A stretch of 64,000 bases of DNA, taken from the NCBI RefSeq assembly GCF_037081715.1, contig NZ_JAZDDH010000002.1:248001-312000 (forward strand), in the 5' to 3' direction. This document shows, one piece after another, positions 11,974-43,623 of this stretch. The translations under genes were made by a program, and so were the position numbers. Origin of the DNA: Halalkalicoccus sp. CG83. GTDB lineage: Archaea > Halobacteriota > Halobacteria > Halobacteriales > Halalkalicoccaceae. Under the pieces are notes generated by a model. The model was not told the DNA's origin, did not search any database, and was given only the letters and a program-made list of their open reading frames with translations. The stretch's first letter is position 1. Each line of letters opens with the position of its first letter.

Positions 11974-12525
11974 CTAGTTGTCCGGAGCGTCGCGTTGTGC
12001 ACCCGAACGCTTCCCCTGGCCCTCGCGCTTGCCGCCCTGACGGCCGCGCGGCTTCTCGCCGCCGGAGCTCGCCCCCTCCTCGGCGGTCTCGAGGTTTCCG
12101 AACGCCTCCTCGACCAGCCGGTTGGTCCCCTCGACGACCTCCTCCCAGTCGTCGTCGTCCGGGGCGACGCCCGACAGGCGGGCGATCTTCATGATCGAGA
12201 CGTGATACACCTGCTGGACGCCCGGCTCGATCTCCCAGACGACGACGTTACACGGGAACAGGCCGCCGATCTGGTTCGTCACGTCGAGCGCCTCGTTGGC
12301 CATCTCGGGGTGACACGCGCCGAGGACGTAGTAGGGGTCGCGATCGACGTCGATCTTCTCGCGAAGCAGTTCCGAGGGCGAGAACTCCACCGGAACGCCG
12401 AAGCCCGCCTCCACGAAGGCCTCTCGGACGTGTTCGACCGCCTCGTCGTGGCCCATGTTCAGCGTGAGCTGTCGTTCGCCGATGTCGTCCGCGGTGAGTT
12501 GCGTCGGATCGATCGGTAGGCTCAT
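11974..12525 (-). CDS. DUF302 domain protein with charged C-terminal tail (183 aa)
   Basis: Residues 15-125 match the DUF302 fold: HDEAVEHVREAFVEAGFGV, then YVLGACHPEMANEAL and FPCNVVVWEIEPG. Cys71 and Cys92 are positioned to interact but have no proven role. The last 40 residues are a basic, Gly-rich tail (KPRGRQGGKREGQGKRSG), unusual for an acidic halophile protein and suggestive of nucleic-acid contact. ATG 12525 (MSLPIDPTQL) begins the conserved part. It converges with the small membrane protein; the CPBP gene upstream stops at 12567, so the three minus-strand genes may share a transcript. Confidence 0.83.
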   Translation of the reverse strand: MSLPIDPTQLTADDIGERQLTLNMGHDEAVEHVREAFVEAGFGVPVEFSPSELLREKIDVDRDPYYVLGACHPEMANEALDVTNQIGGLFPCNVVVWEIEPGVQQVYHVSIMKIARLSGVAPDDDDWEEVVEGTNRLVEEAFGNLETAEEGASSGGEKPRGRQGGKREGQGKRSGAQRDAPDN

Positions 12526-42007: not shown

Positions 42008-43246
42008 ATGGTTCGTGACTATCGACAGCTGCATGATCCCAACGCGGAGTACACCATGCGGGAGCTCTCCGCGGACACGATGGGCCTCAGCGCCAAGCGC
42101 GAGGGCGGACGCGACGTGAAGATCACGGACGTCCAGACGACGATGATCGACGGGAACTTCCCGTGGACGCTCGTGAGAATCTACACCGACGCGGGCGTCG
42201 TCGGTACCGGCGAGGCCTACTGGGGGGCGGGGATCCCCGAACTCATCGACCGAATGACGCCGTTTCTCGTCGGGGAGAACCCGCTCGACGTCGATCGACT
42301 GTTCGAGCACCTGATCCAGAAGATGTCGGGCGAGGGTTCGATCGGGGGCGTGACCGTCTCCGCCGTCTCCGGGATCGAGGTCGCGCTACACGACCTCGCT
42401 GGGAGAATCCTCGACGTGCCCGCCTACCAGCTTCTCGGCGGGAAGTACCGCGACGAGGTCCGCGTCTACTGTGACTGTCACGCCGGCGACGAGAGCGAGG
42501 CCGAATCCAACGCGGCGGAGGCCGAACGCGTCGTCGAGGAACTCGGCTACGACGCGTTGAAGTTCGACCTCGACGTGCCCAGCGGCCACGAGAAGGACCG
42601 CGCGAACCGCCACCTGAGCGACCGCGAGATCGACCACAAGGTCGAGATCGTCGAAGCGGTCACGGACGCCGTCGGCGACCGCGCTGACGTCGCCTTCGAC
42701 TGTCACTGGTCGTTCACAGGCGGGAGCGCCAAGCGTCTGGCGACGCGCCTCGAGGAGTATCCCATTTGGTGGCTCGAGGACCCCGTCCCGCCCGAGAACC
42801 ACGACATTCAGCGCGAGGTCACCCACGCGTCCTCGACGCCGATCGCCGCCGGCGAGAACGTCTACCGAAAGCATGGCCACCGATCGCTCGTCGACCAGCA
42901 GGCCGTCGACATCCTCGCGCCGGACATGCCAAAGGTGGGCGGCATGCGAGAGACGCGCAAGATCGCCGACTTCGCCGACACCTACTACATGCCGATCGCG
43001 ATGCACAACGTCTCCTCGCCCGTCGCGACGATGGGGAGCGCGCACGTCGCCACCGCGATTCCCAACTCGCTGGCGGTCGAGTACCACTCCTACCAGCTCG
43101 GCTGGTGGGAGGACCTCGTCGAGGAGGACGTGATCGAGGACGGCTACATCGAGATCCCCGAGAAACCCGGACTCGGCCTCACCCTCGATCTCGACGTCGT
43201 CGAGGAGCACATGGTCGAGGGCGAGGAGCTGTTCGATGAGGCGTGA
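42008..43246 (+). CDS. gnaD: Gluconate dehydratase, enolase superfamily (412 aa)
   Basis: Converts gluconate to 2-keto-3-deoxygluconate, the entry step of the haloarchaeal semiphosphorylative Entner-Doudoroff path. The N-terminal start MVRDYRQLHDPNAEYTMREL and KITDVQTTMIDGNFPWTLVR match haloarchaeal GnaD from memory. Metal ligands are DVAFDCHWSFTGG (Asp), WWLEDPVPPENH (Glu) and IAAGENVYRKHGH (Glu); a later His is in MPIAMHNVSSPVA. Its last codons (GluLeuPheAspGluAla) lie in the first unit of the downstream hairpin array. Confidence 0.87.
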   Translation: MVRDYRQLHDPNAEYTMRELSADTMGLSAKREGGRDVKITDVQTTMIDGNFPWTLVRIYTDAGVVGTGEAYWGAGIPELIDRMTPFLVGENPLDVDRLFEHLIQKMSGEGSIGGVTVSAVSGIEVALHDLAGRILDVPAYQLLGGKYRDEVRVYCDCHAGDESEAESNAAEAERVVEELGYDALKFDLDVPSGHEKDRANRHLSDREIDHKVEIVEAVTDAVGDRADVAFDCHWSFTGGSAKRLATRLEEYPIWWLEDPVPPENHDIQREVTHASSTPIAAGENVYRKHGHRSLVDQQAVDILAPDMPKVGGMRETRKIADFADTYYMPIAMHNVSSPVATMGSAHVATAIPNSLAVEYHSYQLGWWEDLVEEDVIEDGYIEIPEKPGLGLTLDLDVVEEHMVEGEELFDEA

Positions 43247-43395
43247 GCTTCATCGAGTTCGCTGAGCAGAGCTCAGCGGTGTTTGACGAAGCGTAGGCCT
43301 CGTCAAGCCAACGGATCTTCGATCCGTGCTGTTCGATGAGGCGTAGCCTCAGCGAGCCAGCAAACCGAAGGTTTGTGCTGTTCGATGAAACCGGC
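43228..43395. repeat. Array of short hairpins with a repeated GCTGTTCGATGAGGCGT unit
   Basis: GCTGTTCGATGAGGCGT occurs at 43228-43244, inside the gnaD end, and at 43328-43344, with partial copies at 43279-43295 and 43377-43388. Between them are hairpins: CGCTGAGC-AGA-GCTCAGCG (43260-43278), TTGACGA...TCGTCAA (43283-43306), ACGGATC-TTC-GATCCGT (43311-43327), GAGGC-GTA-GCCTC (43338-43350), CAAACC-GAA-GGTTTG (43361-43375). Three of the loops are GAA, AGA or TTC, and stems are near perfect. The order suggests repeat amplification. Confidence 0.75.
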
Positions 43396-43623
43396 GAGGA
43401 CGAGCCGATGTACGCGACGACGGGCATCAGCGACGACCTGATGGAGGCGACGAGGAAGGCGGTCCGACACATGATCGAGCACCTCGTGAGCGAGCGCGAC
43501 CTCACCCGTGAGGAGGCGTACATCCTCTGTTCGGCGGCGGTCGACCTGAAGCTCAGCGAGGTCGTCGACGCGCCGAACTGGACCGTCACCGCGTTCGTTC
43601 CCGAGAGCGTCTTCCCCGAGTAA
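43376..43623 (+). pseudogene. C-terminal remnant of an acetamidase/formamidase gene
   Basis: The frame reads MYATTGISDDLMEATRKAVR, then LTREEAYILCSAAVDLKLSE and NWTVTAFVPESVFPE. This is the C-terminal end of haloarchaeal acetamidase/formamidase-family enzymes, about 70 of roughly 320 residues. The rest is gone: upstream lies the hairpin array and gnaD, with no further match. An ATG exists at 43336 and 43408, so a small protein could be made, but it cannot be a working amidase. The sequence immediately before resembles the last repeat unit, so the deletion junction is in or near the array. Confidence 0.72.

Follow-up and report, generated by a model that had tools for sequence, protein, structure and literature searches.

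Hairpin modules that repeat gene 3' ends in Halobacteria: an array between a gnaD-type gene and an amidase stump in Halalkalicoccus

Background

A cluster of hairpins that begins inside the last codons of an intact gene and stops exactly where the stump of another gene starts raises the questions of what the cluster is, how it came to lie there and whether it took part in the loss of the missing gene portion. Such a cluster is found in a Halalkalicoccus genome, behind a gnaD-type gene and in front of an acetamidase/formamidase fragment. The first-pass annotation of this DNA, based on its letters alone, had proposed that the array mediated the deletion by recombination between its repeated units or else that it is a mobile palindromic repeat.

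The array belongs to a recurring family of hairpin modules at gene ends, of which no earlier account in haloarchaea was found in the literature searched (titles and abstract starts of open-licence papers; an account elsewhere is possible). The favoured reading, to which a probability of roughly 55% is given, is that these modules form a family of non-autonomous units at protein and tRNA genes of Halobacteria, which are gained and lost as whole modules.

Methods

The window, that is the whole stretch of 64,000 nucleotides analysed here, corresponds to positions 248001-312000 of contig C2 in the 3.64 Mb Halalkalicoccus genome (G000), and coordinates without a locus number refer to it. Loci and genomes from the comparison are cited by L and G numbers. 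The name gnaD for the 412-aa enolase-superfamily gene was taken over from the earlier annotation. Seventy-eight gnaD loci (the best among 300 relatives, from a scan of 84,980 species genomes) were collected together with flanks of as much as 10 kb in either direction, 1.55 Mb in total.

A covariance model, R1, was built from an alignment of 18 modules selected for having two hairpins; module extraction from the loci gave 17, with two long-loop modules, one each in L045 and L066, left out. The further loci searched with R1, including those of tRNA-Leu, dockerin-type, DnaK, NarH and tnpB genes, had been preselected for the presence of the second hairpin.

Results and discussion

The array behind the gnaD-type gene

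The gnaD-type gene lies on the forward strand at 42008-43246 and encodes a protein of 412 aa that ends in MVEGEELFDEA; the assignment rests on the Pfam domains MR_MLE_N and MR_MLE_C and on orthologues, with Halalkalicoccus paucihalophilus as the closest named relative (91% protein identity). The 17-nt unit GCTGTTCGATGAGGCGT begins at 43228, within the 3' coding end of the gene (whose stop codon TGA is at 43244-43246), as had been claimed. A second exact copy is found at 43328 and copies of 76% identity at 43278 and 43377, giving spacings of 50, 50 and 49 nt. These two are the only exact occurrences in the window, where 0.39 matches are expected at up to three mismatches; a match with two mismatches at 12102 is unrelated. 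Thus, the recurrence of the unit was confirmed with four copies, while the real repeat turned out to be a 50-nt module with two hairpins and not the 17-nt unit.

Three such modules at 43232-43380, followed by nine bases of a fourth, make up the array, all on the forward strand, and the described hairpin array beside an acetamidase stump is therefore real. In every module the left arm of the first hairpin has the last-codon sequence of gnaD, and the stop codon falls within the loop or next to it; the second hairpin is a triloop hairpin. Module 1 (43232-43281, 50 nt) starts within the last codons of gnaD itself, which form the left arm of the first hairpin; its stop-codon hairpin (TTCGATGAGGCGTGAGCTTCATCGA) is followed by the triloop hairpin CGCTGAGC-AGA-GCTCAGCG at 43260-43278 (R1 E-value 2e-13). 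Module 2 (43282-43331, 50 nt) carries the stop-codon hairpin TTTGACGAAGCGTAGGCCTCGTCAA and the triloop hairpin ACGGATC-TTC-GATCCGT at 43311-43327 (E 7.5e-14), and module 3 (43332-43380, 49 nt) the stop-codon hairpin TTCGATGAGGCGTAGCCTCAGCGAG and the hairpin AAACC-GAA-GGTTT (E 5.2e-12); all three are themselves training sequences of R1. The fourth module is represented by its first nine bases (TTCGATGAA, 43381-43389), cut by the deletion as judged by comparing the junction with intact relatives. The unit had been reported inside the gene, in the spacer and at the fragment start; the copies in the gene and the spacer stand, and the one at the fragment start is this truncated module.

Six hairpins are predicted in 43228-43395, with folding energies of -45.8 as DNA (z -5.84) and -83.4 as RNA (z -5.86), and none of 200 shuffled sequences folded as well in either form. 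The arrays in L001, L149, L175, L182 and L227 gave no match in Rfam 15 at E-values up to 0.1; in L211 a match to sot0042 lies upstream of the module. In the own genome, the gnaD array is the sole strong R1 match over the window and 400 kb of further stretches, and a BLAST search with the array recovered the array itself and one tRNA-Pro array.

The amidase stump and the deletion

The fragment that follows, at 43390-43623 on the forward strand, is a C-terminal piece of an acetamidase/formamidase (FmdA_AmdA), as had been recognised earlier, since the alignment of 43387-43620 to PF03069 is restricted to positions 311-371 of 373, the last 61 positions aligned. It is the only FmdA match in the own genome at E-values up to 1e-6. 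A complete amidase once adjoined gnaD, as anticipated: full-length FmdA open frames of 359-379 aa lie directly downstream of gnaD and its array, on the same strand, in the congeners G002, G003 and G005, and in G004, of the same genus, the amidase lies about 3.7 kb from gnaD. The gnaD stop and the base homologous to 43390 are separated by about 1105 nt in G002, by about 956 nt in the case of G003 and by 144 nt in the window, so that some 0.8-1.0 kb has been lost here.

All three intact congeneric loci align from exactly 43390 onwards, where the junction reads TTTACCGCC|ACCGGCGAGGAC in the intact amidases and TTCGATGAA|ACCGGCGAGGAC in the window. The bases before 43390 belong to an array module in the window and to plain amidase code in the relatives; thus, the deletion appears to have begun in a hairpin arm of module 4 and to have ended in plain coding sequence at 43390, without a shared unit. 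Recombination between two array units, to which the array unit at the junction might point, is very improbable as the cause, because the matching place in the intact amidases of the congeners examined carries no such unit, and the proposal of an array-mediated deletion by this route is not supported. Being a single event, the deletion lends no statistical weight to the array as its cause.

Modules at gnaD ends across haloarchaea

A BLAST search of 59 relatives with the array, as had been suggested for the unit, matched 15 genomes, including members of other families, and most of the better matches lie at the 3' ends of gnaD orthologues. In the 78 gnaD loci these ends carry arrays of zero to several modules. 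A position-blind scan for hairpin clusters over the 1.55 Mb found 12 clusters as against none in a Markov control, six of them at gnaD ends and three at the end of the Spt5 gene (NGN and KOW domains).

In the alignment of 18 modules, 96.1% of the cells pair and both partners change in 12 of 17 pairs; the covariation score reaches 0.475, compared with 0.177 for shuffled and at most 0.088 for slid controls, values that are inflated by the choice of modules with two hairpins. At E-values up to 0.01, R1 matched the gnaD gene end in 42 of the 78 loci (12 of these 42 had supplied training modules) and gave no match in the other 36, all figures applying to the best 78 of 300 relatives. The matches usually begin exactly at the TTC of FDEA. 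Beyond the gnaD ends, the same threshold over the 1.55 Mb yielded only L106:9490 (E 2.7e-10), behind a gene ending in VFDGA, and L084:20176 (E 0.005). A gnaD paralogue in L019 is also matched (E 4e-10). A match at L305:10959 (E 2e-4) looked like coding sequence and was dropped.

A strong hairpin was found at 45 of 198 TTYGA sites in gnaD 3' regions, compared with 1 of 165 such sites in upstream coding DNA, 2 of 72 further downstream and none of 28 in reversed sequence. Short FD.. ends with an in-frame stop are encoded by 41 of 46 such copies. The stop is kept in frame in 16 of 20 array copies outside the gene, which is the appearance expected of former gene ends. Counting 10/12 gene-end copies, a noisy test, gave 19 of 78 gnaD loci as against 16 of 301 control windows.

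Other protein genes and tRNAs as hosts

The same layout, in which the gene end is followed by an inverted copy, a hairpin and the gene end again, recurs behind the genes for Spt5, aspartyl- and valyl-tRNA synthetases (AspRS, ValRS), NarH, DnaK and an HTH regulator, and behind eight types of tRNA. Copies of the host's own end are found at AspRS (L178, L182, L201, L214), ValRS (L034), the HTH regulator (L017) and a nitrate-reductase-type beta subunit (L134, L149; assigned as NarH from its sequence), as well as, read by eye, at DnaK (L236, L238; identified from the C-terminus), an acyl-CoA dehydrogenase (L170; an assignment made in this analysis) and a dockerin-like gene ending in ALFERL (L235). 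The repeat in L178 and L182 had been read as a protein end RETVSV in the wrong frame; the gene is AspRS, ending in VLFPRDRQRLSP. The stop codon lies in the hairpin loop at gnaD, AspRS and further genes. Five modules follow the HTH gene in G005 (R1 E-values 6e-13 to 4e-7), and R1 also matches at tRNA-Leu (L226, E 4e-10; L231, E 2e-9), at the dockerin-type gene in L235, at DnaK in L236 and L238 and at NarH in L134 and L149. An HTH homologue in L352 ends in LFDEE without an array; thus, the TTCGA end exists before or without modules.

A strict pattern for the second hairpin (H_B, AGCRAATCYYYGATTYGC) occurs in 61 of 286 genomes of the order, the reversed pattern in none. Its 93 matches comprise 26 behind gnaD, 23 that follow a tRNA on its own strand, a single one close to a tRNA but on the opposite strand, and 43 at other places. 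The tRNAs concerned are those for Leu, Gly, Ala, Phe, Glu, Thr, Pro and Arg, and at many tRNAs the repeat, 17-23 nt long, starts at the T-loop (GTTCAAATC) and ends with the final tRNA base.

These hosts appear to be few. When 1201 non-gnaD gene ends were compared with 1278 swapped pairs, repeats matching at 14 or more of 16 positions numbered 8 and 7, respectively; this lack of a general excess indicates that only a few genes are hosts, and the idea of gene-end repeats as a general haloarchaeal gene feature was rejected. Among tRNAs in unbiased flanks and the window, only 2 of 18 have an end repeat. A generic repeat detector returned mostly repeats within coding sequence, the real cases being L307 (tRNA-Glu) and L048 (Spt5).

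Several individual arrays deserve description. The own genome carries two tandem 127-bp copies with the 3' end of tRNA-Pro(CGG) (L002, 1501-1670; C1:1031525-1031692), and the junction GAGCCAGC...GTGCTGTTCGA of this array is identical to that of the gnaD array; a tRNA-Glu(TTC) 3' end of this genome is similarly repeated in L307 (11643-11763). Seven, six and four tandem hairpins lie at the Spt5 ends of L048 (15617-15877), L072 (15781-15941) and L077 (15223-15360), respectively, with two distinct second hairpins alternating with the Spt5-end copies. In L149 (1470-1660) three identical 57-bp modules stand between genes with an ATGA overlap, and every copy restores the stop and the overlapping start. 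An array of six hairpins with unrelated stems lies about 90 bp behind a predicted gene end in L107 (6417-6615).

Differences by whole modules between relatives

Haloferax larsenii and Haloferax elongans align over 2.7 kb with 92.9% identity, and the 54 gap positions correspond to about one exact module of 53 nt flanked by TTCGACGA repeats; gnaD ends in FDEA in one species and in FDEE in the other. At tRNA-Phe in 15 genomes of one genus, one module is present in five, and an extra module of 112 nt adjoins the tRNA in three; G293, G277 and G297 have one 112-nt module more than G300. Both comparisons are unpolarised and therefore do not tell gain from loss. Exact tandem copies, namely three units of 50 nt in L075 and L186 and three of 57 nt in L149, indicate recent duplication. 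Module number and sequence thus vary within a genus, and the earlier notion of a mobile palindromic repeat is largely borne out, in that modules occur widely at the 3' ends of genes and appear and disappear as complete units.

The second hairpin and candidate enzymes

The cores AATC-YYY-GATT and GAGC-YYY-GCTC recur in the second hairpins of unlinked genes, with 3 and 1 matches, respectively, in 369 kb of other noncoding sequence; since the AATC stem is no more enriched outside gnaD than other stems, the rarity of these cores is modest evidence. The second hairpin is also present in dispersed repeats and IS ends that have no gene-end copies, and the occurrence of the same core behind tnpB, in dispersed multi-hairpin repeats and at IS ends weakens a common second hairpin as proof of mobility. 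Six dispersed copies of a multi-hairpin repeat (TGTCGTTCGAGAGAGC...GCTCTCTCGTGACTG-hairpin-GAGGTCCGCGAGACC...) were seen within one family, in L222-L224, L227, L228 and L237, with no obvious tie to gene-end copies.

Among eight genomes searched for enzymes, the Y1 transposase (PF01797) is present in six and gave no match in the own genome and G277, and the integron integrase (TIGR02249) is above the cut-off in none; the own genome does have TnpB genes. By-eye inspection of open reading frames of at least 100 aa in the two longer tRNA-Phe inserts revealed nothing integrase-like. A viral source of the modules was rejected after a search of viral contigs with one pattern gave no match.

Origin of the modules

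The location and architecture of the modules, the covariation in their stems, their presence or absence as wholes in close species, their exact tandem duplication and the truncation of the amidase are established. A module consists of a copy of the gene 3' end, a partial inverted copy of it and a triloop hairpin, after which the next gene-end copy follows; the copied end starts at a TTC close to the end of the gene and includes the stop codon, while at tRNAs it starts at the T-loop and extends as far as the mature 3' terminus. Modules may be gained next to the gene, each newcomer supplying the current gene end and pushing older ends downstream as fossils, and recombination between the repeated gene ends could account for loss and tandem expansion. 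The sequences themselves lead to this account of loss and expansion, but not to one of how a new module originates. The second hairpin at unlinked genes speaks for a mobile or exchanged unit and the gene-end parts, which are always local, for copying at the site. A simple mobile element does not account for the many sites at which the left hairpin is made from sequence of the host gene itself, and this counts against the mobile reading. A bolder and more tentative version of the favoured reading is an undescribed gene-end cassette system in Halobacteria. Here, a putative activity for recombining or copying single strands would insert hairpin modules at a TTC close to the 3' terminus of tRNA or protein genes; each module would carry in, or copy, the terminus and stop codon of its host, and the array would thus preserve former ends in layers and provide C-terminal variation.

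A local origin, in which template switching or dumbbell-type copying gives the zig-zag and slippage and homologous recombination expand it, would need no mobile unit at all. Template switching that homogenises inverted repeats has been described in yeast, in the excerpt of the source used here (PMC8604942), and a correction of quasi-palindromes would likewise yield paired changes in the stems. Both the gene-end copy and its inverted copy are locus-specific at every site, and in the NarH pair an arm of the second hairpin duplicates the bases directly before the TTC (CTGGAGGTG). At gnaD and most tRNAs, however, the second hairpin is no copy of neighbouring sequence, and the recurrence at unlinked genes of cores that are rare in other noncoding sequence also makes a purely local origin rather doubtful. 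Selection on the transcript is a possible, though not a leading, explanation: the hairpins would protect or terminate the transcript and selection would keep the stems paired, as the two-sided changes and the excess of covariation over shuffled alignments, the stop codons in hairpin loops and the location of 23 tRNA-linked matches 3' of the tRNA as against one on the opposite strand would all suggest. Yet the pairing counts are inflated by the two-hairpin selection, a large minority of the gnaD loci gave no R1 match, number and sequence of the modules differ within a genus, and a hairpin does not require the duplication of a complete tRNA 3' end. A 3' UTR role of this kind is compatible with everything seen, is best regarded as a candidate role, and it and the favoured module reading are not mutually exclusive.

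The palindrome-associated transposable elements (PATEs) and small mobile repeats of Haloquadratum walsbyi (PMC3119063) are the nearest described elements. According to the portion of that report used here, they are short, transposase-free, palindrome-based haloarchaeal repeats, as the modules are, of about 52 or 110 bp (PATEs shrink to 52 bp), with IS605-like palindromes near the termini and related hairpins at IS605-type ends; they do not duplicate their targets, which are other mobile elements, whereas the modules are located where host genes end and have the gene end repeated on both sides (17-23 nt at many tRNAs, TTCGACGA at gnaD). A descent of the modules from IS200/IS605 ends or PATEs, as remnants or derivatives moved in trans, is therefore unlikely. 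In its favour, R1 matches lie just behind tnpB in L211 and L330 (the same locus; E 5e-7 and 3e-7) and in L212 and L316 (E 3e-6 and 2e-6) and beside an IS200 tnpA in L205 (E 4e-5), and a perfect triloop hairpin with a stem of at least 6 lies within 260 nt of the script-called stop in 9 of 30 tnpB loci. The R1 matches concern a minority of the 30 tnpB loci, though, at loci chosen for containing the second hairpin, tnpB may be just another host gene, and the own genome has TnpB genes but no match to the Y1 transposase. The favoured module reading accordingly takes the modules as related to haloarchaeal PATEs and IS605 ends without matching them.

If modules are gained at gene ends, they would illustrate how a host gene can take up foreign DNA within its final codons, or within the T-arm of a tRNA, and still function, and the arrays would offer a readable record of changing gene termini. 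Given the conserved presence at one metabolic gene, gnaD, and the recurrence at Spt5, two aminoacyl-tRNA synthetases, DnaK and tRNAs, this can be tested by comparison of strains of cultured Haloferax and Halalkalicoccus species. The modules also account for puzzling short repeats beside truncated genes, as in the window.

Comparison with other known systems

Three further systems share some of these features. REP/BIME elements with RAYT transposases, as portrayed in the excerpt of PMC2817692 used here, likewise form extragenic clusters of alternating palindromes behind genes; they are, however, one family dispersed genome-wide in many copies, whereas the module repeats are gene-specific, and the RAYT (Y1) gene has no match in the own genome. 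Archaeal tyrosine-recombinase elements integrate into tRNA 3' ends, in the excerpt of PMC8371274 used here, with a target from the T-arm to the 3' end and restoration of that end by the repeat, as seen with the modules, but the modules measure only about 50-200 bp, carry no integrase and also target protein genes.

Integron cassette arrays have attC sites with the core consensus GTTRRRY. They resemble the module arrays in their head-to-tail arrangement, with a folded imperfect hairpin (gene-end copy and its inverted copy around the loop) at a junction that starts with GTT. They differ in that the modules carry no gene and no integron integrase passes the cut-off in the eight genomes, and the module cores GTTCGAY, GTTCAAA and GTTCCCG do not fit the attC consensus.

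Some hairpins lie close to transposase genes. Tandem triloop hairpins stand directly behind the tnpB stop, six in L333 (after 1821) and three in L330 (after 1830), and a pair of triloop hairpins near position 1500 of L168, on the reverse strand, appears to break the frame of an IS200-type tnpA.
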